Of a DNA stretch of 27,780 nt, positions 1,711 to 22,000 are shown in pieces. A program made the translations under genes and the position numbers. The notes beneath the pieces are model-generated. The model was not told the DNA's origin, ran no database searches, and worked only from the letters and a program-made list of their open reading frames with translations. The first letter of the stretch is position 1. Each line of letters begins with the position of its first letter. This stretch comes from a virus: positions 1 through 27,780 of IMG/VR virus record IMGVR_UViG_3300020185_003175; one strand, given 5' to 3'.

Positions 1711-2133
1711 TTATAGTGCTTTTGCTGTTAACCCAATGGTTGCTTGTGATACTCTGATAGCATCTTTATAGGTAACGCATTCATAGAATAGGTGTGAACG
1801 CTTTTTTGTAATTAATTCGGCTGTGTAAGTAAGTGTATCTCCAGGAAAAATTGGCTGTCTAAACTTTACTTTGTCTATGCTAGTAACAAAAGTGACTATC
1901 TTACTAAGGTCAACTTCACCAAACTGTTCTTTTGCTGTTGCAAGTGCATGTAGTCCTGCTGTCTGGTTCATTCCCTCTATAACATAAACTCCGGGCCACA
2001 CTTTGATGTGAGGGAAGTGTCCTTCGAGTACTGGGTGGTCCAATGGTATAGTGTATTTTGCTTTTACACTTTTACCTGGACCAATTGTATGACTGTCAAT
2101 CAACAGTATAGGGTGTGCATGAGGTAGATTCAT
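1711..2133 (-). CDS. FabZ-like 3-hydroxyacyl-ACP dehydratase (hot-dog fold)
   Basis: The 140-aa protein has the length and layout of FabZ, which removes water from 3-hydroxyacyl-ACP in type II fatty acid synthesis. The N-terminal LPHAHPILLID matches the FabZ LPHRxPFLLVD signature. GHFP carries the catalytic His (H39), and VIEGMNQTAG carries the catalytic Glu (E53). The 14-residue His-Glu spacing equals that of E. coli FabZ (His54, Glu68). FRQPIFPGDTL matches the FKRPVVPGDQ strand. It starts 4 nt after the second radical-SAM gene, so it is probably in the same transcript. A dehydratase acting on another acyl thioester, with the substrate made by the neighbouring enzymes, is possible. The catalytic residues are intact, so activity is likely. 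Confidence 0.85.
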   Translation of the reverse strand: MNLPHAHPILLIDSHTIGPGKSVKAKYTIPLDHPVLEGHFPHIKVWPGVYVIEGMNQTAGLHALATAKEQFGEVDLSKIVTFVTSIDKVKFRQPIFPGDTLTYTAELITKKRSHLFYECVTYKDAIRVSQATIGLTAKAL

Positions 2134-2137
2134 ATAA

Positions 2138-3970
2138 CTATATATCCTGTGTGAGTAATAATTCTGTATATTTCATGAACTTCATTGCTTGTATCTCTGC
2201 TAATTTTTTAGTGTCTTCAGCATTACCCTGATGAAATTCTTTTGATGCCCACTTGATATCTTCACTAACAGTGGGCCAATGTAATCCTTGTGCTACCAGC
2301 TCTACTATCCCTATAGTATCTAATATCGATGTCATGCCATTATCCTTGTACGGCTTCATACCTTTACGTCTAAAATAGTTTATCACCATGCGTTCACACA
2401 TGTCTAATGACACGCCATTCCTATTTGTCCATGTATTAAACACACCATTGTGGAATTCACCGCTCATCGTGTATCCGTGCTTTTTGTAATTCCTTGAAAA
2501 TTCACTAGTTCCACGTGCTGATATATCTTTACTTGCCATTTCTTCGGGTGCAATATGTAAAACTCTCAGTGTAGGTCGGTCTATAGGAAATTCTTCGCTA
2601 CTTAAAATTTCAAATGTCTCTTGTATGCTTTCTACTGTATCGCTTGGTAGTCCTAATATAAAACCAGAGCCTGTTACTATCTTATCCCAACCGTGATTGT
2701 CTTTTAAATCTCGTAAAAAACTTAATTGTATAGAAGGGTTTAGTCCCTTCCCAATATCTTTTGCACTTTCAGGGTTAGTTGTCTCAACACCAAATTCTGC
2801 ACGTTTTAATCCCATCTCTAGAAGTAATTGTGATTGGGGTGTGTCTTGATTACGATTAACATACAGCATATCCAATCTTAAATAGCAAGAAAAAGTAATT
2901 TTAAAAGGCAGACTTGTAATAATTTCATGTAAGTAAACCATTTTCTCATGGTCATCATTAAATGTATCTTCTACAAACCAATAATCTGATATACCGTGCT
3001 TTTCATAGTTCTCTAAAAATTCTTCTCGTATAGATTCTGCAGATTTATAGTATGTACCTTTTTCTTTACCAGTCAATTCAAAATGGCAGAACGAACATTT
3101 GAAAATACAACCCCTTGCTGACTCTAGCGGAACTATCTCTCCCGGTATTAGTATATCAGAATCAATATATTTCATTGTACTATGCTTCATTTCTATTTTG
3201 CTAAGTATATCTATCTTATATGGGTGGGTTGTATGCACAGGCATATTGTCTGCTGTGTTAGATTTAATCTCATCTAACATATCAGGCATAGTCACATCGC
3301 CCCAACCTACATTGATATAGTCAACATTCTTCAGCGTGACATCTTCTCTGGCTCTAGAACCTCCCTTTACAAACTTCACATTAGGATTAATACTTTTTAC
3401 ATAACTTGTAAAAGCATCATCTATCTCTTCACCGTGCATTAAAAATCCATTGTATGCATATAACGGGTCATCAAACATTTTATTCAAATCTTTTATGCCT
3501 TCCAAAGGTAATACAGGCATTTCGTTAGGTAACATGTTGAGCATCCATGGATAACGCATGTAAAAAGAATTAGAAATACCTATAGCAAGAGTATTTTCTC
3601 CTACATATTTGTCTGCAATGCGTTTTAACGTTTCTAAATCATAAAAACTTTGGTAATCTACTACTTGTACTGTGTATCCACGTAATCTACACTCGTGTGC
3701 AATTTTATATGCACCTAATGTTTTTAAATATAACGAATTACACTTACTTTGTGAGTGATGTATGGGGAGTGGATCGTAGTCTGGGTCTGATTTTTTGGTC
3801 ATCAACGACTCAGATACTTGTGGGTCTGTTTCTTGCCCGGTATTAATTTGCATCTTACTCATAAGAATGTTATAATTCTGTGCGTTATATAAACCTGCAG
3901 GATCTGTAAGTATAATAAAATCCACTGGAGTGTGATTAACTTCAAAATCTTTAAACGGATTAATCTTCAT
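2138..3970 (-). CDS. radical SAM protein with B12-binding-like N-terminal domain (paralogue 2)
   Basis: This 610-aa radical SAM enzyme has its [4Fe-4S] cluster motif as CIFKCSFC (Cys288, Cys292, Cys295) after ESARG, the usual context in the B12-binding radical SAM superfamily. Downstream segments EFGVETTNPESAKDIGKG and GFILGLPSDTVESIQE are typical of that group. The N-terminal region (LGAYKIAHECRLRGYTVQVVDYQ split over residues 86-108) looks like the Rossmann-like cobalamin domain, but I see no DxHxxG cobalamin-ligand motif. It overlaps the upstream paralogue by 11 nt and the two align along their whole length. The substrate is unknown; a methyl transfer, C-C bond or ring rearrangement is possible. 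Electrons for SAM cleavage could come through the reductase at 5841-6584. Confidence 0.85.
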   Translation of the reverse strand: MKINPFKDFEVNHTPVDFIILTDPAGLYNAQNYNILMSKMQINTGQETDPQVSESLMTKKSDPDYDPLPIHHSQSKCNSLYLKTLGAYKIAHECRLRGYTVQVVDYQSFYDLETLKRIADKYVGENTLAIGISNSFYMRYPWMLNMLPNEMPVLPLEGIKDLNKMFDDPLYAYNGFLMHGEEIDDAFTSYVKSINPNVKFVKGGSRAREDVTLKNVDYINVGWGDVTMPDMLDEIKSNTADNMPVHTTHPYKIDILSKIEMKHSTMKYIDSDILIPGEIVPLESARGCIFKCSFCHFELTGKEKGTYYKSAESIREEFLENYEKHGISDYWFVEDTFNDDHEKMVYLHEIITSLPFKITFSCYLRLDMLYVNRNQDTPQSQLLLEMGLKRAEFGVETTNPESAKDIGKGLNPSIQLSFLRDLKDNHGWDKIVTGSGFILGLPSDTVESIQETFEILSSEEFPIDRPTLRVLHIAPEEMASKDISARGTSEFSRNYKKHGYTMSGEFHNGVFNTWTNRNGVSLDMCERMVINYFRRKGMKPYKDNGMTSILDTIGIVELVAQGLHWPTVSEDIKWASKEFHQGNAEDTKKLAEIQAMKFMKYTELLLTQDI

Positions 3971-5828
3971 CGTCTAAGTCCTGCGTAAGTAATAATTCTG
4001 TATATTTCAAGAACCGTTGTGCTGATAGCATCGATAATTTCTTAGTATGCTCTGTGTTAGACTGATCATATTCCAAATAATCAAATTTTATGTCTGAATT
4101 AATAGTGGGCCAATGTAATCCTTGTGCTACTAGCTCTGCAACACCGACTGTACTTAAAACTTTCATTGACATCTGGTGGGCTCTTTTTGTTTTGTAGGGT
4201 TTGAACTGTTTTCGTCTAAAATAATTTTCTAACATCTTTTCGCACATTTGATAAGTTACTCCGTGTCGATTAGTCCAATTATGAAACATGTCTTCGGGCA
4301 TTTCGGATGGATCGGCCAATGTGTATCCATGTTCTTTCCAGTTTTTTGAGAACTCACTTAGGCCTCTTTCTTCAATTTCTTTATCATATGCGTCTTCTGG
4401 TCTAATAAGCAATGCTCTTAAAGTCGGGCGATCAATTGGGAAATCTGGCCTACTCATTATATTAAACATTTCTTGAATACTTTCTTTTGTGTCACTCGGT
4501 AAGCCTAATATAAACCCTGAACCAATTAAAACATTATCCCAACCATGATTATCTTTTAAGTCACGCAGGAAATCCAATTGTATAAGCGGGTTTAACCCTT
4601 TACCAACGTCTTTTGCACTTTCTGGATTAGTAGTTTCTATACCGAACTCCACTCTCTTTAGTCCCATTTCCAGTAACAGTTGGTGTTGTGGTACGTCTTT
4701 ATTTCTATGCACATACAATAAATCCAATCTTAAATAACAAGAAAATGTAATTTTAAAAGGTAAGCTCGTAATAATTTTATGTAAGTTTATTATTTTATCA
4801 GGATCGTCATTAAATGTATCTTCCACAAACCAATAATCTGTTACGCCATGTTTTTCGTAATTATGTATAAACTCTGATGCAATACTTTCATTAGATTTAA
4901 AATATGTACCTTTTTCTTTGCCTACTAATTCTAAACTGCAAAAAGAACACTTAAATATACAACCCCTTGCTGTCTCTAGTGCTATTACTTCACCAGGAAA
5001 CAAAATATCCGACTTAGCATATCGCATAGTGCTGTGTTGCATTTCTATTTTGCTAAGTAAATCTAACTTATAAGGATGAGTAGTATGGATTGGCATGTTG
5101 TCTGCTGTACCAGATTTAATCTCATCTAACATATCAGGCATGGTCACATCTCCCCAACCCACATTAATGTAATCAACATTACGAAGCTCAACATCTTCCC
5201 TAGCTCTTGTTCCGCCCTTTACAAATTTTACATTAGGATTAATTCTACGCACATATTCAACGAATGCATCGTCAATTTCCTTACCGTGTGTTAGGAAACC
5301 GGAGTATGGAATAAAAGGATCATCAAACACTTCACCTTCATCTTGTATTCCTTCTAAAGGCAATACAGGCATTTCTTTTGTTACCATGTTTAGCATCCAT
5401 GGGTAACGCATGTAAAACGAGACAGATATACCAATTGCTAGTGTGTTCTCACCAACATACTTGTCTACAATGCGTTTTAATGTTTCTAAGTCGTACAAAC
5501 TTTGATAGTCTACAACTTGTACCGAGTATCCACGTAATCTACACTCATGTGCAACTTTATATGCTCCTAGTGTTCTAAGATGTAGTGAGTTAGTACTGCC
5601 TCTTGAATGATGTATTACACCAGGAGAAAAATATGGGTTTTCTTTTTCAATCAGTAGTTCCTGTGATACCTCCGGGTCTTTAAGATAACCCGGCGCCAGT
5701 GGGATACTATGCGTCATCATAGTATAATTATGTGCGTTATACAGTCCATATGGATCTGTGAGTATAATAAAATCTACTGGAGTGTGTTTTGTAACTTCGA
5801 AATCTTTAAAAGGATTTATTTTTTGCAT
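3960..5828 (-). CDS. radical SAM protein with B12-binding-like N-terminal domain (paralogue 1)
   Basis: This 622-aa protein has cluster motif CIFKCSFC at Cys290, Cys294 and Cys297, preceded by LETARG and followed by FGIETTNPESAKDVGKG and GFILGLPSDTKESIQE. It is a full-length paralogue of the next gene (shared blocks include HECRLRGY, VVDYQS, RAREDV, INVGWGDVTMPDMLDEIK and the C-terminal KYTELLLTQD). Differences concentrate in residues 35-75 and in the C-terminal third, so the copies probably act on different substrates or at successive steps. The ATG has only a weak Shine-Dalgarno (AGG, too close) and a GATAAATA motif ends 5 nt before it. The motif overlaps the stop codon of the reductase gene, so late transcription can begin here independently of that gene. 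Confidence 0.85.
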   Translation of the reverse strand: MQKINPFKDFEVTKHTPVDFIILTDPYGLYNAHNYTMMTHSIPLAPGYLKDPEVSQELLIEKENPYFSPGVIHHSRGSTNSLHLRTLGAYKVAHECRLRGYSVQVVDYQSLYDLETLKRIVDKYVGENTLAIGISVSFYMRYPWMLNMVTKEMPVLPLEGIQDEGEVFDDPFIPYSGFLTHGKEIDDAFVEYVRRINPNVKFVKGGTRAREDVELRNVDYINVGWGDVTMPDMLDEIKSGTADNMPIHTTHPYKLDLLSKIEMQHSTMRYAKSDILFPGEVIALETARGCIFKCSFCSLELVGKEKGTYFKSNESIASEFIHNYEKHGVTDYWFVEDTFNDDPDKIINLHKIITSLPFKITFSCYLRLDLLYVHRNKDVPQHQLLLEMGLKRVEFGIETTNPESAKDVGKGLNPLIQLDFLRDLKDNHGWDNVLIGSGFILGLPSDTKESIQEMFNIMSRPDFPIDRPTLRALLIRPEDAYDKEIEERGLSEFSKNWKEHGYTLADPSEMPEDMFHNWTNRHGVTYQMCEKMLENYFRRKQFKPYKTKRAHQMSMKVLSTVGVAELVAQGLHWPTINSDIKFDYLEYDQSNTEHTKKLSMLSAQRFLKYTELLLTQDLDDED

Positions 5829-5833
5829 ACCTG

Positions 5834-5841
5834 TATTTATC
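5834..5841 (-). promoter_or_regulatory. T4-type late promoter motif GATAAATA
   Basis: GATAAATA on the minus strand, overlapping the TAG stop of the reductase gene and 5 nt (CAGGT) before the ATG at 5828. It would allow late expression of the radical-SAM pair and FabZ without the upstream genes, and it predicts a transcript starting at the start codon. Confidence 0.55.
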
Positions 5842-6584
5842 TAGTCTACAAAGGCTCGTTCTAAGACAAAATCATTTGGCTCTCCTAAGTTTCCCTCTAT
5901 AAATCCTTTATCTTCAAAATAATCTCTGCATTCGTAATTCATTTCAGGACCGCCACATACCATAACTCTATCAGTTGCTTTGTTGAATCCGCCATTAGTA
6001 AACTCTTCTATGTGTTCCCAGAATCTACCTTTACGGACATAATCTTCTTGAGTACAAGTATCATAATAGGTTAATGAAAACTCAGGTGTATCCTTTAATG
6101 TTTCAACTGCTAATTGTATTTCTGTTTGATAAGTGTGTTCATCGTGTGTCCGTGTAGTGTGTACCAGTATCACATTATTAAATTTACTGTATGTATCTGG
6201 GTCTCTAATAATACTCATGAACGGTGCAAGACCTGTGCCTGTGGACAGCAAATATAAATTATCTGCTTCAGTTAAATTATCAATCGTTAACGTGCCCGTA
6301 GACTTAGGCATGACTAATACATCGTCTCCAACTTTTAAATGCTGTAGACGACTTGTTAGAGGTCCGTCTGGTACCTTGATACTGAGGAACTCTAGTTCAT
6401 CTTCATAGTTTGCACTTGCAATACTGTATGCTCTAAGTAATGGTCTGCCGCCTTCTTCTTCTGAAGGCAACCCAATCATAGCGAACTCTCCGTTTATAAA
6501 ACGAAAACTTCTATTGCGGGTGGTTTTAAAACTGAATGTCTTGTCTGTCCAATGGTGGACCCAAGTAACTTTTTCTGTATGCAT
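5841..6584 (-). CDS. ferredoxin/flavodoxin-NADP(+) reductase
   Basis: A 247-aa FAD enzyme of the bacterial Fpr type, which moves electrons between NADPH and ferredoxin or flavodoxin. RAYSIAS at residues 51-57 is the FAD-binding RxYS motif, GTGLAPFMS at 116-124 binds the nicotinamide nucleotide, and VMVCGGPEM is the C-terminal pyrophosphate-binding segment. The terminal LERAFVD resembles the end of alphaproteobacterial Fpr proteins as I remember them, hinting at host lineage. The Shine-Dalgarno AAGGAAG is strong and lies directly after the tRNA-Ala, so the gene is probably on the tRNA transcript from the promoter at 7184-7212. Its position before two radical-SAM enzymes suggests that it feeds their clusters with electrons (inference). 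No ferredoxin or flavodoxin gene is visible, so a host carrier would be needed. Confidence 0.9.
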   Translation of the reverse strand: MHTEKVTWVHHWTDKTFSFKTTRNRSFRFINGEFAMIGLPSEEEGGRPLLRAYSIASANYEDELEFLSIKVPDGPLTSRLQHLKVGDDVLVMPKSTGTLTIDNLTEADNLYLLSTGTGLAPFMSIIRDPDTYSKFNNVILVHTTRTHDEHTYQTEIQLAVETLKDTPEFSLTYYDTCTQEDYVRKGRFWEHIEEFTNGGFNKATDRVMVCGGPEMNYECRDYFEDKGFIEGNLGEPNDFVLERAFVD

Positions 6585-6599: not shown

Positions 6600-6675
6600 T
6601 GGTGGAGACAGAGGGAATCGAACCCACGACCTTCTGGTTGCAAACCAGACGCTCTCCCTACTGAGCTATGCCCCC
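6600..6675 (-). tRNA. tRNA-Ala (UGC)
   Basis: Minus-strand cloverleaf of 76 nt. The acceptor stem is GGGGGCA paired with TGTCTCC (with G-U pairs), and CCA is encoded. The anticodon stem TCTGG/CCAGA closes the loop TTTGCAA with anticodon TGC, and the T arm contains GGTTCGATTCC. It is third in the tRNA cluster. Confidence 0.95.
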
Positions 6676-6955: not shown

Positions 6956-7030
6956 TGGAGCGGGTAGTCGGAATCGAACCGACATCCAAACGTTGGCAAC
7001 GTCTTGTAATAACCGTTATACTATACTCGC
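6956..7030 (-). tRNA. tRNA-Gly (GCC)
   Basis: Minus-strand cloverleaf of 75 nt. Anticodon stem AGACG/CGTTT closes the loop TTGCCAA, anticodon GCC. The T arm has GTCGGTTCGATTCCGAC, and CCA is encoded after discriminator T. The acceptor stem GCGAGTA/TACCCGC has one A-C mismatch at the fourth pair, which may lower stability or may reflect divergence. Confidence 0.9.
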
Positions 7031-7081: not shown

Positions 7082-7171
7082 TGGCGGAGAGTGAGGGATT
7101 CGAACCCTCGATACAGTTACCCATATACCTCCTTAGCAGGGAGGCGCTTTCGACCACTCAGCCAACTCTCC
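7082..7171 (-). tRNA. tRNA-Ser (GCU)
   Basis: Minus-strand cloverleaf of 90 nt with the long variable arm of class II tRNAs. The acceptor stem GGAGAGT/ACTCTCC is perfect, the anticodon loop is CTGCTAA with anticodon GCT, the T arm has GAGGGTTCGAATCCCTC, and CCA is encoded after discriminator G. It is the first gene after the promoter at 7184-7212. Confidence 0.95.
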
Positions 7172-7241: not shown

Positions 7242-8273
7242 ATGCCAAGATTAAGTTTATGGAACAAAAATAAAGGAAACGATTACGACTTTATAGATAG
7301 AGTTGTAGCCGAGTCTGTCAACGCTGGTGGAACTGGAGTTTATGTACATAAGTATATAGGCACATACCAAGATGACACCACGCAAGGTCACGGAAACGAT
7401 GACGAGTTATATATCCAGGATGTTGTATTCCTTGAGAACAGAGACAGGAAATACGACACAGACATATACGAACTACGTGGTTCATACACCATAGCAGACC
7501 CCGATTTTGACTTAACCCAGTTTGGTTTATTTGTAAATAACGATTCGTTGTTTATGACTTTCCATATGAACACATGTGCTAACATGTTGGGCAGACGTTT
7601 AATGGCAGGAGATGTTTTAGAGTTACCACATTTAAGAGATGATTTATTATTAGGTGGTGGTGAAGCAGTTAATAGATTTTTTGTAGTAAGTGATGCTGGA
7701 CGACCAGCAGAAGGTTACGATCCTAGATGGTGGCCTCACTTGTGGAGAGTTAAACTTAAAAATATTACAGACAGTCCAGAATACAGAGATATTCTTGGTA
7801 CTGGTGAACAGGCTGATGACCTTAGAAATGTTCTAAGTACATACAGTACTGAAATAGCAATATCAGATAAAGTAATAGAACTAGCAAATGCTGAAGTACA
7901 ATACGATGCAGGATACTATGAGGGCGGTCATTTATATGTAGATGAAAACTCACAGGATAAACCGGGCGTGTACTTCCCAGGTGATGGTGCTCCGCCTAAT
8001 GGTATTTCAATAGTGGGCAGTGGCGATGCAATGCCACTTGACGCAAACGATGGAGAATACTACTTGAGAACAGACTTCACTCCAAACAGACTATTCAAGA
8101 AGCAAGGCAGTAGGTGGATTAAGATAAGCGATGACAACAAACGTGTCTGGAGTGCCGCCAATAAAATACTCACATCATTCGTTAATAATGATAATATAAC
8201 TACTAACACAGACGGAACTACTCAATCAGAAAAAACTAATATGAGTAAGGCTGTGAAACCTAAGGCAGATTAA
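7242..8273 (+). CDS. 14: T4-like gp14 neck protein
   Basis: This 343-aa protein begins PRLSLWNKNKGNDYDFIDRV, followed by a GGTGVYVHKYIG segment, an N-terminus I associate with gp14 neck proteins of T4-like marine phages. gp14 works with gp13 at the head-tail junction. It is longer than T4 gp14 (256 aa). The C-terminal part contains a short DGEYYLRTDFTPNRLFKKQG segment, a 'label plus value' type module common in marine phage structural proteins, followed by a Ser/Thr/Asn/Lys-rich tail. gp15 begins 1 nt after its stop, which matches the 14-15 order of T4. Transcription is expected from the late promoter at 7227. Confidence 0.8.
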   Translation: MPRLSLWNKNKGNDYDFIDRVVAESVNAGGTGVYVHKYIGTYQDDTTQGHGNDDELYIQDVVFLENRDRKYDTDIYELRGSYTIADPDFDLTQFGLFVNNDSLFMTFHMNTCANMLGRRLMAGDVLELPHLRDDLLLGGGEAVNRFFVVSDAGRPAEGYDPRWWPHLWRVKLKNITDSPEYRDILGTGEQADDLRNVLSTYSTEIAISDKVIELANAEVQYDAGYYEGGHLYVDENSQDKPGVYFPGDGAPPNGISIVGSGDAMPLDANDGEYYLRTDFTPNRLFKKQGSRWIKISDDNKRVWSAANKILTSFVNNDNITTNTDGTTQSEKTNMSKAVKPKAD

Positions 8274-10789: not shown

Positions 10790-12847
10790 TTATTTACTTG
10801 TGGCTATAAAAACGCCATCCCAATCTTTAGGAAGTTTTTGTGTTTTTTGAAATTCACAACGTTCAATCCACATATCATAATAACCTTTCATCTTACCCTC
10901 AAAAGCATCATGTAGTTGTTCACATAATTTAATTGCTTTATCGAAGTTTTGTTTACGATATTGCATGTGCATATCTTCATGCATCTGTTTGGCTTTTGCA
11001 TACTTGCCTACTTTAACATCAAGTACAGTGTATATTTCAATGCCCACAGTCTTTCCTTTTACTGCTAGGTCATCTACTTTTAGATAAAAGAATTTATTCT
11101 TTGTGTGCTTGTAAGTGTCTCCTCCCACTAACAACAAGCACCCATATTCCTTACACTTACTTTCTATTCTTGCCGCAGTACTAACTGCGTCTCCGAGTAT
11201 GTCATATGAATGTCTGGCAGTGGAGCCCATCTCCCCAATATAACCGAGCCCAGTATTAATACCAGCACCCATACCAACTGGCGGTCTGCCTTCTTTAACA
11301 ATTTTATCATTGAATTCCTCTACTGCTCTAAGCATTAGTATTCCTGTTTTTACAGCACTTGCAGGATGATCTGGATCGTCCATTGGTGCATTATGTATGT
11401 GCATACTTGCATCGCCGATATACTTAATAACCATTCCGTCTGCATCAAGTATAGGCTGTGTAATGGCATCCATGTAGCCATTCATTATTTTTGTTAGTCC
11501 CTGAACATCATCACCAAAACTTTCTCCTAGTGGGGTGAAGCCACGCAAATCTGAGAAGCATATACTAACTTCTTTTTTCATACCTTGTTTAATTAGTTCT
11601 GGATTTTCTTGTAACATACGCACTACTGTAGGTGAGGCGTAACCGGCAAATTGTTTTTGTATTTCTGCTCGTAGTTTAAACTGTACCCAGAAGTTATTAA
11701 AACTTGCCTGTGTGAATATTAAGAATGTTGCTATTGCAGGAAATGTTGCATCAAATAAAACTAAGTTTGCTGTATAAGAATGTACACTATAATATACAAT
11801 TCCGCCTATAATAGTAACTGTAGTTACTAGTCCTGCCCATACGGGCAACTTATATATTGCTAGAGCAACTAATACCATGCTCAACAACGCACACAGAAGC
11901 TCGTACACAGCACTTAATTCATTCCTAGTAATGTTACTACCGTCTATAAAGTTTTGTAGCATATGAGCTTGTATAAACTGTGGGTAAACGTTGCCGCCCG
12001 GAGTGGGAACCGGATTAGCAACGCCTTCAGCACTTACTCCCACTATTACGAACTTTCCACCTAAGTCAGGTAGTTCACTCGCTGTTACATACTCGTGTTC
12101 TTCGAAAGTATTATTAAATCTTATGTAAGCAGAACCTCTAGCAGATGTAACAATCGGATCAAATGGAGGCACTGCAAATTCCTTTATACCTATTTCACTA
12201 GTCTTTAAAATATAACTAGGCTTACCTGTGTAAGCTCTTAACATCTCTATAGCAAAACTAGGATATATCTTTCCCTCTACTCCTATTGCTAGTGGGTAAG
12301 TTCTTGTTTGGTTATCTGGTTGAGGCTCTGTTGCTACTACCCCTATACCTGCGGCTACACTTTCTAGTGGCTCAATATTCGTTACGAGATTCGGCCATGT
12401 CAGCAAGTAATTGGTAGCGGGTACTGGGCCTATTGTTGCTGTACCAATGTGCGGACCTGAACTCCTTGTCCCTTTTCCAGATGGGGTCTGGGACAAAATT
12501 ATGCCGTTGTCCGACATCCAACTTTGTAAAACTGCGTCCCCGCCAAATCGGTCTTGCTCTGGAAACATGATCGTTAAACCAATCATTCCAGCGTTTTTGT
12601 TCCTCAGATCCGATATCAGTTGTGCTATGTTCTGTCTTGGCCATGCCCATTGTCCCCATGTGTCTAAACTTTTTTCGCCAATGTTTATTACTACAACTTC
12701 ATTACTGTGTTTCTTTTCGTCTAGTTGTTGTAATGCATCGAATGTTTGGCTACGCAAACTTTGTAATGGTGTAGGATCGGCAACTCGTAGTGTTGTCAGT
12801 AGTAATATAGATATTGCTACGGCCCAGCCGCTTAGTAACCATTTCAT
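10790..12847 (-). CDS. membrane CHASE2-domain class III adenylate cyclase
   Basis: The ATG start at 12847 gives 685 aa; a TTG 15 nt upstream is in frame but lies in the promoter motif. Order of parts: one membrane helix (residues 5-22), an extracytoplasmic CHASE2 sensor (about 25-305, with VVVINIGEKSL and WPRQNIAQLI typical of CHASE2), three membrane helices (about 312-382), and a cytoplasmic class III cyclase (about 425-600). The metal-binding aspartates are in FSDLRGFT (D433) and YIGDAS (D479). Lys475 in IKYIGDA and Asp549 in YDILGD are the pair that selects adenine, so ATP to cAMP is expected. The usual transition-state Asn in GDxVNxAAR is Ser here (GDAVSTAAR, S556) while the Arg (R560) is kept, so activity may be altered. 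Transcription is by its own late promoter at 12853. Confidence 0.9.
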   Translation of the reverse strand: MKWLLSGWAVAISILLLTTLRVADPTPLQSLRSQTFDALQQLDEKKHSNEVVVINIGEKSLDTWGQWAWPRQNIAQLISDLRNKNAGMIGLTIMFPEQDRFGGDAVLQSWMSDNGIILSQTPSGKGTRSSGPHIGTATIGPVPATNYLLTWPNLVTNIEPLESVAAGIGVVATEPQPDNQTRTYPLAIGVEGKIYPSFAIEMLRAYTGKPSYILKTSEIGIKEFAVPPFDPIVTSARGSAYIRFNNTFEEHEYVTASELPDLGGKFVIVGVSAEGVANPVPTPGGNVYPQFIQAHMLQNFIDGSNITRNELSAVYELLCALLSMVLVALAIYKLPVWAGLVTTVTIIGGIVYYSVHSYTANLVLFDATFPAIATFLIFTQASFNNFWVQFKLRAEIQKQFAGYASPTVVRMLQENPELIKQGMKKEVSICFSDLRGFTPLGESFGDDVQGLTKIMNGYMDAITQPILDADGMVIKYIGDASMHIHNAPMDDPDHPASAVKTGILMLRAVEEFNDKIVKEGRPPVGMGAGINTGLGYIGEMGSTARHSYDILGDAVSTAARIESKCKEYGCLLLVGGDTYKHTKNKFFYLKVDDLAVKGKTVGIEIYTVLDVKVGKYAKAKQMHEDMHMQYRKQNFDKAIKLCEQLHDAFEGKMKGYYDMWIERCEFQKTQKLPKDWDGVFIATSK

Positions 12848-12852
12848 TAATA

Positions 12853-12860
12853 TATTTATC
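12853..12860 (-). promoter_or_regulatory. T4-type late promoter motif GATAAATA for the cyclase
   Basis: GATAAATA on the minus strand, then TATTA, then ATG 12847, again exactly 5 nt and again with no Shine-Dalgarno. It directly follows the T-run of the upstream terminator, so the cyclase is an independent late transcription unit. Confidence 0.75.
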
Positions 12861-12888
12861 AAAAAAAAAGCACACCGTAGTGTGCTTT
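12861..12888 (-). terminator. rho-independent terminator of the curli-like operon
   Basis: On the minus strand GCACAC-TACG-GTGTGC forms a 6-bp stem closed by a UACG tetraloop (UNCG type), extended by AAA/TTT and followed by nine T. It lies 3 nt after the stop of the frameshift reading frame (12891) and ends the operon begun at 18696. Confidence 0.9.
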
Positions 12889-13496: not shown

Positions 13497-14561
13497 CTAG
13501 TTGCTTCCGTTCACTGTTATTGAACACCCTGCTGTGTTATAGCACACACCAGTGATACTGTAACTGCCTGCTGATGATGTCATATTTTGTTGTAAGTTAA
13601 GTGTGTAAGCACCAGTACCATATGTTAAATCAATCGCCGCTGTTGCGGCATTACCGCCTCGTTGAGTAACATCAACACTATGTCCGTCACCATCTAAAAC
13701 GACATCTGCCCATTTAACACCACCGTTACCTCGTTGATATAAATCCACAGTATTACTATCTCCGGCTATTTCTATAAAGCCATCGTGTCCTGCTTTGCCC
13801 ATTTGTATATGCTCTACACTATTACTGTCACCACTAATAATATTTACTAAATGGTGTCCTGCACCACCACTACTTCTGTTTGTGTCTGTTTGATAACTTG
13901 CTAATGTGTTATTATCTCCAGTAACTGTCCAGTATGCTTCGTGGTCGCCTACTTCATCAGAATCAGTTGTGCCGTCTGAATGTTTGCCTTGCCATATTCT
14001 GAGATCATTATTATCTGAACCTGAACCCATAATAGCAAAAATATAATTGTTATCCTGCCCGGCACCTTGGAAAGCATCGATACTATTATTAGTACCAGCA
14101 TTATTAAGTACTTCGAGGTAAGCATAATGATCATCGCCTGCTTGCCAAAGTTGTATTTCATTATTAGTGTGAAGGTTGGAGCCACCTGCTTCTAACCAAG
14201 CATAATTGTCATCACCCATTATCTCTGCTTTGAGTTGACCATAGTTACCATGGTTATCTAAAAATAATTTGTTGTTATCACCTTCTACATAGCCATCTGT
14301 TATTTGATTACTACCACTAGTCCACAAACCTAAAAGATTATTGTTGCCTCTTTGTTGTAGGCTTACTGTATTTGTAGCACCATTAAGATAGGCGTTACCT
14401 ATTGCATTGTTTAAAGAACCAACTTTATTTCCGTATCCTTCTTGTAATATATCTAGTGTTAGATTATCGCCTGTTTGGTCTATATAGACTTGGTTATCTT
14501 GTGCATATACTTGTTCTGTAAGTATACACATAGTAAGTATTAATAATATTTTTTTATTCAT
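13497..14561 (-). CDS. curlin-like secreted amyloid-repeat protein 2
   Basis: A 354-aa protein with a signal peptide (MNKKILLILTMCILTEQVYA, cleavage after YA). The mature part is rich in Asn, Gly, Asp and Gln and made of imperfect curlin-type repeats in which alternating hydrophobics are followed by DNN, GDNN or GNNN turns, for example IDQTGDNLTL, VSLQQRGNNN, VEGDNNKLFL, SGDSNSVEHIQMGKAG and AGDSNTVDLYQRGNGG. These match the S-x5-Q-x-G-x-x-N-x5-Q pattern of CsgA/CsgB units. Its start overlaps the FecR-domain stop by 8 nt. With CsgG and CsgF upstream it is a probable type VIII secretion substrate. A Cys pair near the C-terminus (VCYNTAGC) could form a disulfide. Longer than E. coli CsgA (151 aa). 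Confidence 0.85.
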   Translation of the reverse strand: MNKKILLILTMCILTEQVYAQDNQVYIDQTGDNLTLDILQEGYGNKVGSLNNAIGNAYLNGATNTVSLQQRGNNNLLGLWTSGSNQITDGYVEGDNNKLFLDNHGNYGQLKAEIMGDDNYAWLEAGGSNLHTNNEIQLWQAGDDHYAYLEVLNNAGTNNSIDAFQGAGQDNNYIFAIMGSGSDNNDLRIWQGKHSDGTTDSDEVGDHEAYWTVTGDNNTLASYQTDTNRSSGGAGHHLVNIISGDSNSVEHIQMGKAGHDGFIEIAGDSNTVDLYQRGNGGVKWADVVLDGDGHSVDVTQRGGNAATAAIDLTYGTGAYTLNLQQNMTSSAGSYSITGVCYNTAGCSITVNGSN

Positions 14562-15729
14562 TTTGTGTTATGCTTATGTATATGCCGTCACAACTGTTTA
14601 GGCATATCAAGTCCTCTCCGTTATCTTCGTCAAATATTTCAACTCTTGCTGTTGATCCTTTTTCTAATTTAATACCAATAGTGTTTGATATTTGTCTTAA
14701 TAAAAATATTTTTCCATCGTATTCTGCAAAACTGTTAAACTGTGTGTTTGGGTCATTACCAAATCTTGTTCCTATCAGTCTGTCAGTGCCATCTCCGGAA
14801 CCGTCCAATTCGTTACCCAACGAATCAATATTATCTTCTAATATGTTCAGCAAGTCTTTTAAAAATTCAACATCTAAAAAGTTTATGTCCAACTCTGTAA
14901 ATTCATAATTGTCTTTTGTGTTGTCATCTAGACTTTCAATCTCTAATGCATCTGCATCAAGTCCATCAAAGTCTAATAATCCTGCATCGCCTTGTAGTTC
15001 TTGTACTTGTTCCTCTTTTGCTTCAGTAATTTGTTCTGGCTCGCTTACAATGAACATATTGTCTATCTGATTTAAATCTAAATTAACCAGTACAACAGGC
15101 GTTGTAGGTATAGTCTCAAATGTACTAACCATTACTGCTTGGTAGGCTTCTGTTAGTACTTGAGTACCTCCGTCATTTGTAACTGTTATACTTCCGCTTG
15201 GCGCACAGCCTTCTTCTAATTTAACTTTGTCTGTGCAATTCTCATCTGGTAATAATATTACCAAACTTCTACCCAGTTCATCTACTGTGGTAGTAAAATC
15301 TGTTCCCCTAATACCAATACTGGCTGTGGGGGTTTGTATTTGTATATTTTCCCTAGGTACTAAACCTAATCCTCCTGTGGCAAATCTTGCTGTACCTGAT
15401 ACAAAATTTAAAGCCATTTTGCTCTTACTAGGATTCGGATCATACACATATTCATTTATAACCATATAAGTGTGTTCGGTCAAACTTACTAATGTGTCGT
15501 CAACAAATTTAATTTTTAATCTGCCGTTTTTTGTTTCTACTTCATCCATACTGGCTATACTTTCATCTAAAACTGCTGGTATGTTTTCTCTGTCTCGTTG
15601 TATCTGTGCTATAGTACCAGACTGTTCAAGCACTCCGCCGATTGACTCAGCGGAGGCTTGCACATTGAATGTTGCTATTAGCAATAATGCTAATAACTTA
15701 GTCTGTCTGTTTAATACTAACTGATGCAT
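14554..15729 (-). CDS. secreted FecR-domain protein
   Basis: From ATG 15729 the product is 391 aa (a GTG two codons upstream, 15735, is in frame). A signal peptide ends about residue 28 (NVQASAES). A FecR domain follows at about residues 50-175, with LKIKFVDDTLVSLTEHTYM, FVSGTARFATGG and the diagnostic IQTPTASIGIRGTDF. The domain is beta-rich and periplasmic in sigma/anti-sigma systems; FecR proteins without a membrane helix, as here, occur next to surface amyloid or adhesin genes. The rest is acidic (many DLD/LDAD/ELDI runs) and ends with a small beta module (GSTARVEIFDEDNGEDLICL). It overlaps the curlin-like gene 1 by 32 nt. A periplasmic accessory or surface-attached partner of the amyloid proteins is inferred. 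Confidence 0.8.
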   Translation of the reverse strand: MHQLVLNRQTKLLALLLIATFNVQASAESIGGVLEQSGTIAQIQRDRENIPAVLDESIASMDEVETKNGRLKIKFVDDTLVSLTEHTYMVINEYVYDPNPSKSKMALNFVSGTARFATGGLGLVPRENIQIQTPTASIGIRGTDFTTTVDELGRSLVILLPDENCTDKVKLEEGCAPSGSITVTNDGGTQVLTEAYQAVMVSTFETIPTTPVVLVNLDLNQIDNMFIVSEPEQITEAKEEQVQELQGDAGLLDFDGLDADALEIESLDDNTKDNYEFTELDINFLDVEFLKDLLNILEDNIDSLGNELDGSGDGTDRLIGTRFGNDPNTQFNSFAEYDGKIFLLRQISNTIGIKLEKGSTARVEIFDEDNGEDLICLNSCDGIYISITQNE

Positions 15730-16501
15730 TTTCACTGTCTATTTCTAAATTTATAACACCATTACATGCCGGTGTGCATGTTGTTGTCATATTTTGTATA
15801 AATTGAAAATCGCCATCGCTACCATCTAATTCTACAGTTAACAAGTGTGCATCATTTCCATTTTGCAATGTTGCAAACTTATTGTCGTCACCTGTAATAT
15901 CAAAGTTCCAAGTATTGTAACTAGAATCAATAATTATTCCTGCCATAGTTTGTGTACCAGTACCGTTATTGGCTGTGCCTGCGGCCCAGACCTTACTGTT
16001 TGTAAAACTAGTCGAAAAATCGTTTCTAGATCCTAATATGGTTAAATCCATATTAGAACTTTCGGCTGTAGCGTTTCCGCCTATATCAATATCAAAAATA
16101 TTATCGTCGCCGGTAATATTCGAAAGGATATCAGTATAGTCACCACTTCCTGTAGCGCCGATATTCATATCCCAGATATTGTTATTACCTTGAAAGTAAA
16201 AATCTAATACACTAGAACCTGATCCATCGAGCACCCATGATCCGAACATTTCGTTTAGGTTACCGTCTTGGATTAGATCAACAATTAAACTACTACCGGT
16301 TAGAGTTAAATCAGTAGACTGACTCGTGTCACCGGACAAACTATTACCATAGCCTGCCTGTAGAATTGTTAACGTTAAGTTGTCTCCAACTTGATCGATC
16401 AATACTTCATTATCCGCAGATGCTAGATCCATTGATAATATCCCTGTTATAGCGAAGACGGTTAATATTGTGTTTTTTAAAGAAAAACTTTTAGTCTTCA
16501 T
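15698..16501 (-). CDS. curlin-like secreted amyloid-repeat protein 1
   Basis: A 267-aa protein with a signal peptide (cleavage about ASA-DNEV, residue 29/30) and GGAG Shine-Dalgarno. The mature N-terminus DNEVLIDQVGDNLTLTILQ is nearly the same as that of the other curlin-like protein (DNQVYIDQTGDNLTLDILQ), showing common descent. Repeats have the hydrophobic strand and DDN/NN turn pattern (IQDGNLNEMFG, FQGNNNIWDMNI, ITGDDNIFDIDI, ITGDDNKFATLQ). A C-terminal Cys pair (CTPAC) is followed by a final strand. One of the two proteins could nucleate and the other form the bulk fibre, as CsgB and CsgA do (inference). CsgG lies 26 nt upstream. Confidence 0.85.
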   Translation of the reverse strand: MKTKSFSLKNTILTVFAITGILSMDLASADNEVLIDQVGDNLTLTILQAGYGNSLSGDTSQSTDLTLTGSSLIVDLIQDGNLNEMFGSWVLDGSGSSVLDFYFQGNNNIWDMNIGATGSGDYTDILSNITGDDNIFDIDIGGNATAESSNMDLTILGSRNDFSTSFTNSKVWAAGTANNGTGTQTMAGIIIDSSYNTWNFDITGDDNKFATLQNGNDAHLLTVELDGSDGDFQFIQNMTTTCTPACNGVINLEIDSENASVSIKQTD

Positions 16502-16527
16502 AACTTACTCCATATATGGTTTATTTT

Positions 16528-17520
16528 TTAAGAGTCTTTTTTGTAAAAAATTTGTTTTACAATTGACTCATCATTCTCAAATTCAGATTTTGCGTCACTC
16601 ATGGGCTCAGCTATTTTATCGGATACTTTTAACCAATAAGCCTGTTCCTGTTCAGCAACTTGTTCATCCCAATTTTCAGGATAAACAATCTTCCAAAATC
16701 CTCGTTCGTCGCCTTGTTCTACTAGAGCTAAAACGGAGGCTTCAATCGCTGACCGAACTCCCCATGTTACACTCTCGTTCTCTGTCAAACCGCTTTCTAT
16801 TTCGAGCAATTTAGTGTCCATGTCAAGGAACTTGAACACATCGCCGGCTTGCCCGACACTTAGAATGGTTTTGTATGTCTGTACGTTTAGTATCACTTCC
16901 CCAGTTAATGTACTAACTGCTCTTAATGATACCACTACACTATCTCTTCGATATTGGTTAGTTGTCCCAATACCCAAGTATCTTGCACCTGAGCCACCTG
17001 TTTCTATATTAGAGTCGTAACCAACGACGCCGCCTTCTAATATCATCCCAGCAAATAATAATGGCTGTACTTGTTGTGCTGGCTGATCTTTATTCGCATA
17101 CGATTCTCTTGTACTACGAATAATTTGCCTTTCTCGCACTAAGTTATCTAAACCGAATCCTCTTTCAACAACACGAAACCAAGTTCCTTTAGGATCTTTA
17201 CCGGCTCCTGCCGCCTTGAGAGCATCGATTAATAAGTCTTTTGCACCTTGGGTAACTGCGGTACTAAAACTAGCCGCCCCATCGGAACTCAATCTTTGTC
17301 CTGTTAAGTCGTCAAACTTATACACTGCCACTACTGGCATTGTTTCTGCTGGAGGAAGATAACGCAACTTTCTATAAGTAGGTAATTCTACTTGTTGCGG
17401 TTCCTCCACACATTCTAAAAAATTTGTATTGCATATTTCATCACCAGGAATGGCAATGCTGGCGCAACCAGAAGTTAGCAATAATGCCGCTAAGGCAAAA
17501 GTCAAACTAAAGTATTTCAT
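16528..17520 (-). CDS. csgG: CsgG, curli-type outer-membrane secretion channel
   Basis: A 330-aa protein that aligns along nearly its whole length with E. coli CsgG (277 aa). The lipobox LTSGC gives lipidated Cys19. VAVYKFDDLTGQ matches the E. coli VSVYNIQDETGQ. SFSTAVTQGA covers the pore constriction, where Phe is kept (F85), the Asn is Ser (S84), and the Tyr is not conserved with one extra residue in the loop, so the pore throat is probably altered. VVGYDSNIETGGSGARYLGI and the following strands match the transmembrane beta-hairpins; VFKFLDMDTKLLEIESG and the RGFWKI C-terminus also match. It forms a nonameric pore in known members. The start codon overlaps the csgF stop (TAATG). The C-terminal 40 residues are extra. 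Confidence 0.95.
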   Translation of the reverse strand: MKYFSLTFALAALLLTSGCASIAIPGDEICNTNFLECVEEPQQVELPTYRKLRYLPPAETMPVVAVYKFDDLTGQRLSSDGAASFSTAVTQGAKDLLIDALKAAGAGKDPKGTWFRVVERGFGLDNLVRERQIIRSTRESYANKDQPAQQVQPLLFAGMILEGGVVGYDSNIETGGSGARYLGIGTTNQYRRDSVVVSLRAVSTLTGEVILNVQTYKTILSVGQAGDVFKFLDMDTKLLEIESGLTENESVTWGVRSAIEASVLALVEQGDERGFWKIVYPENWDEQVAEQEQAYWLKVSDKIAEPMSDAKSEFENDESIVKQIFYKKDS

Positions 17521-18026
17521 TATCCGCCGCCAATGCTTCCGATACCAATCGGTATCTCAATTTCAGTTACAGACCCGTCCGGATCTACAATAGTTAATCT
17601 CATAACTTCTAACCCATCTTCGTTTAATACAATTTGGTATGAAACGTTGTTACCTTCAATAGTAAAATCACCTGAATCTGAACCTGTACATTCTACTACA
17701 GTGGCTGGATCACAGAACATACTGTCTACTAATCCTTTTGATATCTGTGCGTATATTCTGCTTTCTAAATTTCTGATAAATTTGTTTATTGTGCTGTTAG
17801 ACTCTTCACGTTCAGCCGCCTTGAGTGCTGACTCTATGTCATCTCTGATTTTATCTTTACGACTTTTTTCCTGATTTTCAATCGTTAGGTAATGAGCTCC
17901 TGTGCCTATTCCGCTGAAACTAGGAGATTTAAATTTATGTACTAGTTGGTCTGCTTGTGCCGGAACAACAACACATGCCATTAACCATACTACTAATGCA
18001 ATTTTTGTTCCACTATCTATTTTCAT
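17520..18026 (-). CDS. csgF: CsgF-like curli assembly factor
   Basis: A 168-aa protein with a signal peptide ending PAQA (residue 25). The mature N-terminus LVHKFKSPSFSGIGTGAHYL matches the CsgF segment FQFRNPNFGG...NGAFLL, which inserts into the CsgG pore and couples secretion to nucleation. The middle part (RNLESRIYAQISKGLVDSM) matches the FTQAIQSQILGGLL helix, and a C-terminal beta region matches the DRKTGQTSTIQV strands, here ending in IGIGSIGGG. Two Cys in the middle (MFCDPATVVECTG) are not usual for CsgF and may make a disulfide. Coupled to csgG (TAATG) and to the upstream gene (ATGA). Confidence 0.88.
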   Translation of the reverse strand: MKIDSGTKIALVVWLMACVVVPAQADQLVHKFKSPSFSGIGTGAHYLTIENQEKSRKDKIRDDIESALKAAEREESNSTINKFIRNLESRIYAQISKGLVDSMFCDPATVVECTGSDSGDFTIEGNNVSYQIVLNEDGLEVMRLTIVDPDGSVTEIEIPIGIGSIGGG

Positions 18027-18322
18027 TTATTAACTTCCTGTTTTTTTATTTCTTCTAATGCTTCTTTTTCTTCTGCGTCTTCCAATACGGCTTGTCTTGC
18101 CCTGTATTCTAAAACAACATTTACTTTTTGTTGTAATCTAATCATGTCTTGGTCAAGCATTCTAGTTTGATCAATAACTCTGATTAGTGCCATGTGCATT
18201 TGTCCTAATGCTGGCTTAATTTCTGTGCCGATAAATTTCCATACATAAAAAATAAAATATCCTAACCCAACTGTGGCGACTACTGGGTAGCCGTGGTCTG
18301 AAACAAGTTGTGCTATATCCAT
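18023..18322 (-). CDS. small holin-like membrane protein 2
   Basis: A 99-aa protein with one N-terminal membrane helix (YPVVATVGLGYFIFYVWKFI, residues 12-31) followed by a charged helix that can form a coiled coil and a Glu/Lys-rich tail. It resembles the gene before it (G-x-P-[IV]-x-x-x-[VI]-x-[ML]-G-[FY]-F-I-F), so the two are paralogues. Size and layout recall BhlA/UviB-type holin-like proteins, but I cannot confirm membership. Strong Shine-Dalgarno AGGAGAG. The start overlaps the previous stop (TAATG) and the stop overlaps csgF (ATGA). Confidence 0.75.
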   Translation of the reverse strand: MDIAQLVSDHGYPVVATVGLGYFIFYVWKFIGTEIKPALGQMHMALIRVIDQTRMLDQDMIRLQQKVNVVLEYRARQAVLEDAEEKEALEEIKKQEVNK

Positions 18323-18618
18323 TAGTCTCTCCTAACATCTAACTTGCCATCCTCTACAAAGTTTTCTGCTCTCGCAACTCTATCGATATCTGGTCTGAGG
18401 TCTAATGCACTGCTTACAAGCAAATCAATTTTTATCATTTCATTACTCATTGTTCTTGCTCTGTTTTCTAAACTATTACAAAACATCGTGAGTGTTTCGA
18501 TTTGACCGACTATGCCGGCAAGCATCTGTTTGATTATGAGAAATATAAAAAATCCCATGGTGATGGAACCAGCAATGGGTAGGCCTACTTCGCCAATTAA
18601 TTTGAAAATGTCTTCCAT
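18322..18618 (-). CDS. small holin-like membrane protein 1
   Basis: A 98-aa protein, first gene of the curli-like operon. It has one membrane helix (GLPIAGSITMGFFIFLIIKQ, residues 12-31), then an amphipathic helix (QIETLTMFCNSLENRARTM) and a charged C-terminus. It is a paralogue of the next gene. The pair could form a mixed membrane assembly: a holin and antiholin, or an inner-membrane platform serving the CsgG pore. Both are inference from size and position. The leader runs 70 nt back to the late promoter at 18689, with a modest Shine-Dalgarno (AGGTG). Confidence 0.75.
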   Translation of the reverse strand: MEDIFKLIGEVGLPIAGSITMGFFIFLIIKQMLAGIVGQIETLTMFCNSLENRARTMSNEMIKIDLLVSSALDLRPDIDRVARAENFVEDGKLDVRRD

Positions 18619-19088: not shown

Positions 19089-22000
19089 TTACATCATGTT
19101 AACTAAAACTTCAATAACACCTTCACCTGCTTCGTTTGAACCAACTGCTTTACCAATGATTCTACCTGCCTGTGCATTGTTATCTGCTTTAGCATGACCT
19201 TTAACACTTGAACTTACAAGCAAGTCACCTTTAGCAACTGGACCAGTAACCTTAGTTGGTACTCTTCCTGTTAATGCTACATACTGACCGTCTGCATCTG
19301 AGTTCATCATGTATGCTGGGTCTGTACTAATGACACCTGCTACTGAATGATGAGCTTCATGTTCACATGCTGTTATTTCTTTCTCTCCGCCGAAACATAC
19401 AACTGTTCCTGCTTCTAGTTCTTCATCGCTTTCATATTTCTCAGCCAAATCCGCAAACTTTGCCGAACTTGCTGTTCCTTGGAAAGTTACTGCGTATACT
19501 TCATTATATCTTAATGAACCTGATCCTAAGTCAATTGAGTTATCTGCACTTGGGGTAATTGTACCACTATGCGAATCTGCCGCATCGCTTCTCATGAAAC
19601 TTGAACTATTAATTCCGTCTAATGTATCTGCATCTACATTCAATGCGTCTACATAAGAATTAGTAACTCTTGCGTCAATAAGTGTGTTAACTCTTGCACT
19701 TGTATGATATTGGTTTGAGCCTTCTGATAAATCACTAGTACTAAACGCACCCATGTTCACTGACATAGTTGCACCACTAATACTTAAACCTGTGCCTGCA
19801 TCTAACCAATTCATAGCAGATGAACTGTCGTCCCAGAACATCATTCTGTCGTCGTTTGGATCTGTTAACCCTTCAATGCCTAAGTGGCTTAATGCTAGTG
19901 AAACACTTCCACTTGATCCACCACCTGTTAAACCAGTACTAGCAGTAACACCTGTGATGTCACCAACGTTAGTTGTCCAACCACCATAGTTACCTAAGTC
20001 ATTACTAAAGTCGCTTAGTGTGATTTCGCTAATAAGTTTTCTACTTTGTACACCTGAATCTAATATTACTAGTTCGTCAGATGAACCAACAACTGCCGCT
20101 GTCATATCTGGAAGTTCTGTAAGGTCAACATTCAATGTAACTGACCCTGAAGTTCCGCCGCCGTCTAACAATGTACCTGCTACAACGGCTTCAATATCAC
20201 CTGCGTCATTAGTGAAACTAATTACACCAGTTGAGTTATCATATGATAAATCACCACCTGCACTAAGTAAACCTCTTACATACGAGTCGCTTAGTTCTAT
20301 TGTAGGTGTGCCACTTGTGCCGCCGCCTGTTAAACCGCTTCCTGCTGTTACACCTGTTAAGTAACCAGTATCTGTAAGTGAAATTTCACCAGTACTATCA
20401 TCATATGTAATACCTGTTCCACCGCTTATTAGTCCTAAAACGTGTGAATCACTTAATGCTAATGTAACTGCACCAGTAGTACCACCGCCTGTTAAACCAT
20501 TTCCAGCAGATACGCTTTCAATATCACCGGCATCATTAGTGAAACTAAACACACCATCACTATAAGATAGGTCACCGCCTGCACTAAATAATCCTTTAAT
20601 GTAACTAGGGCTAACTGCTAATGTAATATCACCAGTAGTACCGCCGCCTGTTAGACCTGTTCCTGCTGTAACACTTTCTATATCACCCGCATCGTTAACA
20701 AAAGTGATTACACCAGTACTGGAATTATAAGATAAGTCGCCAGCAACACTAATTGCCGCTCTTGCTCTTGCATCTGTATAATAAACATTGGTCGAACCTT
20801 CGCTTAAATCATCTGTATCAGCTGATGCCATTTTGCTATCCCAACGTGCTGTTGTATAGTATAAATTAGTACCTTCTAATAAGTCTGTTGTTGTTTCTGC
20901 AATCTTAGTATATGCACTACCGTCTGTAGTAAATTCCCACTGATCGCTTGTTTCGTTCCACTGAAGATTTACATCTGCACTAGTACCTCTATCAACTGTG
21001 ATTCCAGCATTTTCTGTTGGAGCACCCGAAGTACCATAGTTTAATGTAATAATATTATCTTCTAAATAAAGTGTTTCTGTATTAACAGTAGTTTGTGTTC
21101 CGTTAATAGTTAAGTTACCGTTAAATATTGCATCAGCACTGAATGTTTTCGCACCAGCAATTGTTTGAGCGCCAGTTGTTCTTACAACTGTAGCATCAAC
21201 TTCAATTGTGCTTGAATTGTTATCAATACCGTCACCGCCAGTAATATATGATGTACCGTCTACATACGTTTTGTTTGTAGCATCGCCGGATACTGCTGGA
21301 GTACCTACGTTATTAATGTAGTTACTACTTGCATTGACGTTACTTGATAACTGTAATCCGCCTGTGCCGCCTAGTGTTTTAGAAGCATCAAACAACATGC
21401 TCGATTGTGCGTTAATTACGCCAGTTCCTGCCGCGTTTAATTCAACATCACCTGAGCCAGACGTCTTAACTGCAACGTTCTGATCTTCATCTGCACTAAT
21501 TGTAATTGTACCTGCGTCATCTTCTAATACTTTCTGTCCGTTAACATATAAAGAACCTGGACCAACATAAATGTCTTTCCACATCATTGTTGTAGAACCC
21601 AAATCGTATGTTACGTTTGCTGTTGGTATTAAGTTGCCTGCCATGTTTTCATAGTCTAAAGCAACAGTAACGTTACCAGTGGCTCCGCCGCCTGTTAAAC
21701 CGCTTCCTGCTGTTACACCTGAGATGAGATCTTCATCTGTTAATGCAATAACACCTGTGCCTTCTGTATATGTAATACCTGCTCCACCACTAACAGAAGC
21801 TCTTGCTCTAGCATCGGTGTAGTATAAGTTACTTGAACCTTCTGCTACGTCATCTGTTTCAACTGCGTCAACGTATGCTTTAATTGATTCTGAACTTGAA
21901 ATTGTTGTTGCTGTGGCTGTGCCCATCGAATCATCATCGATCAATGCACTACCACTTATCCCAGTGTTTAAAACTGGACTAGTAAGTGTTTTGTTTGTTA

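Follow-up and report, generated by a model that had tools for sequence, protein, structure and literature searches.

A phage cassette of ferredoxin-NADP reductase, radical-SAM and FabZ genes that may modify acyl chains

The viral record IMGVR_UViG_3300020185_003175 of IMG/VR was analysed over its whole length of 27,780 bases, here called the window. Four intact, codirectional open reading frames (ORFs) on its minus strand, here called the cassette, encode a ferredoxin/flavodoxin-NADP reductase (FNR), two radical S-adenosylmethionine (rSAM) proteins named rSAM1 and rSAM2, and a FabZ-type dehydratase (Table 1). FNR and rSAM1 are separated by a 12-nucleotide gap, rSAM1 and rSAM2 overlap by 11 nucleotides, and a 4-nucleotide gap precedes FabZ. 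An earlier note on this DNA had described four intact consecutive genes with overlaps or gaps of at most 12 nucleotides, and the coordinates, the strand and the Pfam matches all confirm this. The intact CxxxCxxC that it had claimed for the rSAM pair takes the form CIFKCSFC in both proteins, and the catalytic His/Glu pair that it had seen in FabZ (His39 and Glu53) is invariant in 19/19 cassette FabZ sequences.

Table 1. Features of the window (aa, amino acids; ACP, acyl carrier protein)
Feature	Position	Strand	Remarks
FNR, Fpr-type ferredoxin/flavodoxin-NADP reductase, 247 aa	5841..6584	-	First gene of cassette; PF00175 and PF00970 above cut-off
rSAM1, radical-SAM, cobalamin-type architecture (predicted), 622 aa	3960..5828	-	PF04055 above cut-off; CIFKCSFC at residues 290-297
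rSAM2, paralogue of rSAM1, 610 aa	2138..3970	-	PF04055 above cut-off; 71% identity to rSAM1
FabZ-type 3-hydroxyacyl-ACP dehydratase, 140 aa	1711..2133	-	Last gene of cassette; PF07977 above cut-off
Hyp386, conserved phage protein	448..1608	-	phrog_11903; downstream anchor of insertion slot
tRNA-Ala(TGC)	6600..6675	-	Directly upstream of cassette
tRNA-Gly	6956-7030		Beyond tRNA-Ala(TGC)
tRNA-Ser	7082-7171		Beyond tRNA-Gly
Virion structural protein	7242..8273	+	phrog_11591; upstream anchor of insertion slot
CHASE2 adenylate/guanylate cyclase	10790-12862		Adjoins curli-type set
Curli-type set: CsgG, CsgF, FecR-domain and curlin-repeat proteins	13497-18618
Two large tail-fibre-like proteins	19089-27754	-	PF18338 and phrog_697 stretches common to both

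The nearest PDB chain to FNR is 6rr3_A, a ferredoxin-NADP reductase (bacterial Fpr; E 5e-71), and FNR scores 117.4 bits with the NCBIfam equivalog PRK10926, under the cut-off of 390. FabZ matches the FabA-like hot-dog domain PF07977 at 65.1 bits (cut-off 23) and solved FabZ chains in the PDB at E 3e-19, with the catalytic residues aligned. It falls under two NCBIfam equivalog cut-offs (90.4 against 155.15 bits and 93.7 against 113 bits), and appears from these matches to be a divergent FabZ.

With PF04055, rSAM1 and rSAM2 score 54.0 and 47.4 bits (cut-off 29.5), and the CxxxCxxC motif is present in 60/60 listed representatives of the rSAM family. Their top NCBIfam match is TIGR04072 (rSAM_ladder_B12, lipid biosynthesis B12-binding/radical SAM protein), while HpnJ (TIGR03471) gives 57.3 and 55.7 bits, under its cut-off of 577.6. 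An AlphaFold2 model of rSAM1, built from a 28-row alignment (predicted local distance difference test 80.2, predicted template modelling score 0.86), has an N-terminal Rossmann domain and a radical-SAM barrel. Foldseek matched the model to TsrM, OxsB, TokK, AprD4, MgmA and CysS, and in VIA-align TsrM and OxsB reached Z 16.5, with TsrM, OxsB, AprD4 and CysS spanning Z 15.8-16.5; alignment to cobalamin rSAM folds covers most of residues 17-597. With TsrM, OxsB, TokK, CysS and AprD4, rSAM1 thus shares the Rossmann and barrel fold and the CxxxCxxC motif, but identity is only 12-15% in the best six structural alignments and the B12-binding domain PF02310 stays below its cut-off (25.6 against 32.1 bits; rSAM2 has no listed match). 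The PDB entries of CysS and TokK hold pantetheinylated substrates, according to their titles. On the strength of the model, rSAM1 and rSAM2 are predicted to have a cobalamin-type radical-SAM architecture.

Viral relatives were gathered by searches with rSAM1, the rSAM alignment, FabZ, Hyp386 and FNR, and are numbered here as loci (L) or, for longer records, with the prefix G. The 121 redundant loci reduced to 24 genotypes, window included, when clustered at >97% identity of the FNR and FabZ proteins. FNR is first and FabZ last in all 24, and whatever genes separate the two on that strand encode rSAM proteins. The number of these varies: none in two genotypes, one in 14, two in seven and three in one. 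FNR, at least one rSAM gene and FabZ are therefore found together in 22/24 genotypes, and the gene ends often overlap. Wherever both anchors are visible they enclose the cassette, with the structural gene at 7242 on one side and Hyp386 on the other; the Hyp386 search returned 44 viral loci. In a sister clade, where Hyp386 is present and the neck gene is more distant, the cassette was found in none of the 11 loci that show both anchors (L100, L101, L107, L108, L111, L112, L119, L122, L123, L129 and L130). The slot of some sister-clade loci (e.g. L100:6927-9714) holds a sugar epimerase/dehydratase gene and a different B12-type rSAM gene. In 22 further loci FabZ is not seen after FNR, mostly because the contig ends first, but L247-L250 and L253 have other neighbours. 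Five of eight dN/dS comparisons, one of them of FNR between the window and L005, were computable and gave about 0.05 to 0.16, which points to purifying selection in these five. Because the 24 genotypes keep FNR and FabZ as ends with only rSAM genes between, and because dN/dS is low, the genes are not a chance group.

In a tree, the cassette rSAMs fall into one clade of 24 rows, two of them non-cassette, with support of 98/100 and two deep branches. The rSAM pair of L005 has one member on each branch: rSAM4 is about 30-32% identical to the rSAMs of the window, and its partner is 95% identical to rSAM2. The last rSAM ahead of FabZ is rSAM2 in L002, L003 and L005. The ends, FNR and FabZ, are fixed and the rSAM set is exchangeable; the simplest reading of the sequences is that rSAM genes have been swapped within the slot. 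The count of zero to three rSAM genes and the pairing of distant lineages in L005 are compatible with rSAMs acting at different steps.

The rSAM family was found at 486 viral loci in a pattern-based scan. A single scan of a collection of 84,980 cellular species returned 24 relatives; three of them reach E 2e-40 or better, and the fourth drops to 1e-13. Of these three close matches, two (L134 and L135) lie on short contigs of metagenome-assembled genomes that appear viral or do not allow a judgement, and neither FabZ, FNR, desaturase, ketosynthase (KS) nor acyl carrier protein (ACP) genes were found near any of the 24 with our own profiles and queries. Given so few close cellular matches and no partner genes beside the 24, a host-derived operon was rejected. 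rSAM1 and the rSAM of L047 had no tblastn match in 50,697 phage records. FabZ matches in the same records include Listeria, Enterococcus, Staphylococcus and Salmonella records, and these probably represent host DNA. Judged by these searches, the rSAM family appears to be almost purely viral.

Outside the cassette, relatives of these rSAMs keep company with acyl-chain genes. Among 40 non-cassette loci, a desaturase-type ORF (called with our own profile, near-duplicate records included in the counts) adjoins the rSAM gene in 10 and lies inside the fetched stretch in 16. Pfam PF00487 was above cut-off in 5/6 of these desaturase-type ORFs tested and in two more in a later scan, and nine histidines are invariant in 15/15 aligned desaturases. 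Fatty-acid desaturase was also the top Pfam family in the scanned neighbour proteins (6/44, though the one in L119 does not neighbour an rSAM gene). L069:2923-15098, in a 46,964-base record with viral ribonucleotide reductase and virion-like genes, holds KS, two ACPs, FabZ, AcpS, a short-chain dehydrogenase/reductase, three desaturases and a B12-type rSAM within 13 kb. The rSAM gene there is convergent to a KS-ACP-FabZ run, with AcpS, the short-chain dehydrogenase/reductase, the three desaturases and the second ACP nearby. IscA/IscU-like ORFs, recognized by eye, come next. Positions C150, H287 and H322 of the KS triad are kept in four phage KS sequences. In G007 (355 kb, with virion genes) an ACP, an AcpS-like ORF and five desaturases occur alongside the rSAM, and two other loci have FNR close to an rSAM gene (L256) or to a desaturase (L253). 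Since rSAM relatives adjoin desaturases and, in L069, a KS/ACP/FabZ/AcpS set, these neighbourhoods support an acyl-chain theme over a chance gene group.

Viewed from the desaturases, a family rSAM lies no more than about 6 kb away in 13 of the best 80 viral loci, and two or more desaturases occur in 33 of the 80. L353 has nine desaturase ORFs with KS, AcpS, ACP and a Rieske-like ORF, L337 has KS and five desaturases next to tail-like proteins (by eye), and L333 has five desaturases and a family rSAM. Such arrays are reminiscent of bacterial polyyne clusters. Where sister-clade phages have a desaturase, L105:20129-21167 and L120:14748-15654 encode a diiron protein that resembles AurF or aldehyde decarbonylase but scores below Pfam cut-offs.

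At the level of whole records, desaturases were found in 9/12 rSAM-bearing non-cassette records against 1/15 without rSAM (p 0.0008, cultured controls included). The ten cultured large relatives used as controls were picked by tail, cyclase or Hyp386 similarity, and desaturase and family rSAM were both missing from 10/10. Eight environmental records selected by FNR had desaturases in three, rSAM in three and both in two. Omitted from this comparison were G032, which has desaturases but was not searched for rSAM, and G017, which has a weak rSAM and FabZ alone. A test of proximity over seven records gave a Fisher-combined p of 0.0008, but is biased because the records were partly chosen after desaturases had been seen in them.

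We read the cassette, with moderate confidence, as a phage-encoded pathway or module that modifies acyl chains. FabZ would set the substrate class to 3-hydroxyacyl-ACP if it keeps its ancestral activity, and the cassette is therefore read as acting on acyl chains with the ACP of the host. B12-type rSAM enzymes need reducing power, which an Fpr-type FNR can provide via host flavodoxin or ferredoxin. FNR would thus pass electrons from NADPH to one of these carriers and on to the rSAM enzymes, which would act on unactivated carbon atoms of an acyl chain, either one carried by host ACP or one in a lipid. FabZ would then dehydrate the 3-hydroxyacyl-ACP of the altered chain, making elongation or release possible. 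As the chemistry we favour C-methylation, giving methyl branches, though with low confidence; ring or C-C bond formation is the main alternative. PMC13142503 gives methylation as the commonest reaction of cobalamin rSAM enzymes, and ring formation is proposed for ladderanes in PMC2649909 and PMC13142503. Methyl branching, like desaturation, would be expected to loosen membrane packing.

Several observations weigh against an acyl-chain pathway. TIGR04072 scores are 64-82 bits (66.8 and 67.6 for the window rSAMs; 101 at best among relatives, in L333), far from its cut-off of 360, and in 4/6 non-cassette members it is outscored by the P-methyltransferase family TIGR04479. The association of rSAM with desaturase loses significance when only environmental controls are kept (p 0.10). 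No flavodoxin or ferredoxin scored above cut-off in any of 11 phage records, and hence the electron carrier would be the host's. Desaturase (PF00487) and KS were found in none of nine rSAM-bearing cassette records searched, all of them fragments, and a search for ACP in three of these (G001, G002 and G004) and in the further cassette record G003, likewise fragments, was negative. Records with FNR and FabZ but no family rSAM in the slot are mixed: G012, which speaks for an acyl-chain pathway, has three desaturases and KS, G013 has two desaturases and KS, and the 17.7 kb of G016 hold no desaturase. In the sister clade, a single desaturase was found in G009 and another in G010. The contrast within the Hyp386 clade (0/9 against 4/5, p 0.005) is confounded by phylogeny. 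That rSAM and desaturase are alternative routes to altered chains fits these distributions, which are confounded by phylogeny and by incomplete records. A small ORF just upstream of FNR in L018, L023 and L120 was considered as an ACP and rejected, because the DxSL-like stretch has T in place of S in L024 (by eye).

The earlier note had proposed one pathway that modifies an acyl chain or makes a small molecule, to be checked by co-occurrence of the genes. It is supported in part. The 22/24 genotypes with all three gene types, and the relatives beside desaturases, KS, ACP, AcpS and FabZ, speak for it. Independent occurrence, which the note had named as telling against it, was found in a minority: two genotypes have no rSAM gene between FNR and FabZ, FabZ is alone in L198, and FNR is without its companions in L247-L250 and L253. 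This minority could also mean that two modules share one slot, with FNR and FabZ a metabolic booster of redox and fatty-acid synthesis flux and the rSAMs separate cargo aimed at something else. A family rSAM without FNR or FabZ, as seen in most other viral loci viewed, would agree with that. We consider it unlikely, as the rSAM genes lie exactly between FNR and FabZ in nearly all genotypes, their relatives accompany acyl-chain genes by themselves, and FNR recurs near an rSAM or a desaturase in L256 and L253.

Instead of a membrane lipid, the product could be a diffusible small molecule, such as an acyl compound that resembles polyynes, serves as a signal or acts as an antimicrobial, but this is distinctly unlikely. 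In the window cassette we found neither a gene for release or export nor a ligase gene, nor a KS or ACP of its own, although other phages have the desaturase arrays of L353 and L337, the first with KS, AcpS and ACP and the second with KS. Two proteins of cispentacin synthesis give further resemblances, all below cut-off: AmcF to the KS of L069 and L353, and AmcE to the FabZ proteins of both the window and L069.

We regard as very improbable a third possibility, that the rSAMs modify some protein, tRNA or nucleotide belonging to the host or the phage, in the manner of other B12-rSAM and MiaB/RimO enzymes, with FabZ incidental. RiPP, MCR and P-methyltransferase families are among the NCBIfam matches, and L031-L037 and L067 have rSAM genes close to genes for tail and neck proteins, but desaturase outnumbers every other Pfam family in the scanned neighbours. 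The earlier note had suggested structure prediction for a cobalamin pocket; the cobalamin-type fold was recovered, but MiaB and RimO, with the same two-domain layout, align to the rSAM1 model at Z 15-16, close to the cobalamin enzymes, and the fold is therefore no proof of cobalamin use. Known methylthiotransferases depend on another conserved triad of cysteines and on a TRAM domain. A MiaB/RimO-type methylthiotransferase was rejected as the best reading since rSAM1 has six cysteines but just those of CxxxCxxC, three in all, are conserved at ≥90% (28 rows of alignment A3) and no TRAM match was listed in the Pfam scan of the window proteins.

Among known systems, acyl-chain modification by the cassette may be compared with the ladderane/polyunsaturated-hydrocarbon clusters of anammox bacteria and Desulfotalea, which, according to PMC2649909, combine rSAM genes with fatty-acid synthesis genes including FabZ. 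The top match of the window rSAMs, TIGR04072, has the NCBIfam name rSAM_ladder_B12, and in L069 an rSAM is joined with KS, ACP and FabZ. The window cassette differs in scoring far below the TIGR04072 cut-off, in that no KS, ACP or phytoene-desaturase-like gene was found in it, in having FNR, and in being viral.

Roitman and colleagues, cited in PMC11480375, are said to have described cyanophage-encoded lipid desaturases in 2018. Viruses of Nitrospirota in Lake Baikal encode an acyl-CoA desaturase, according to PMC7678222. That phage genes alter host acyl chains is thus an accepted idea, and the same Pfam family neighbours rSAMs here, but the window cassette has rSAM, FNR and FabZ and shows no desaturase. 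In PMC7678222 (desaturases) and in PMC7760394 and PMC5463345 (ACPs), such genes are published as single genes, and the phage lipid genes in these papers are mostly lone desaturases or orphan ACPs. Our searches of the open-licence PMC literature found neither an FNR-rSAM-FabZ cassette described nor, in phages, an association of this rSAM family with KS, ACP and desaturase genes. If the cassette acts as we propose, phages would remodel acyl chains by dedicated multi-enzyme modules, with possible effects on membrane fluidity, assembly, lysis or superinfection. The near-viral enzyme family may hold new chemistry, and whether a phage makes lipids of its own would become testable with about four genes. 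A wider idea, which we hold only tentatively, is that large aquatic phages carry acyl-chain factories in which near-viral cobalamin-type rSAMs, FNR, FabZ, KS, ACP, AcpS and desaturases are interchangeable parts, yielding chains that the host does not make. The window cassette would then be a streamlined form that borrows ACP and elongation enzymes from the host.

The tail-sheath-stabiliser gene of the window has its nearest matches (37-38% identity) in jumbo phages, among them PA5oct and Phosso, and the virus appears to be a marine giant-phage relative. Pelagibacter phage HTVC008M and Methylophilales phage Melnitz have the same layout of CsgF/CsgG, curlin-repeat and CHASE2-cyclase genes, but differ in that neither the rSAM family nor a desaturase was found in either phage. 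One to five members per locus of a family that we call nxt278 (L002:11493-12329 and paralogues) resemble 2OG-Fe(II) oxygenases by eye, with no Pfam match. Related phages also carry isocitrate-lyase-type genes, supported by the Pfam ICL family at L125:755-2068 and recognized by eye at L018:5925-7133, L245:4373-5587 and L252:2535-3740.

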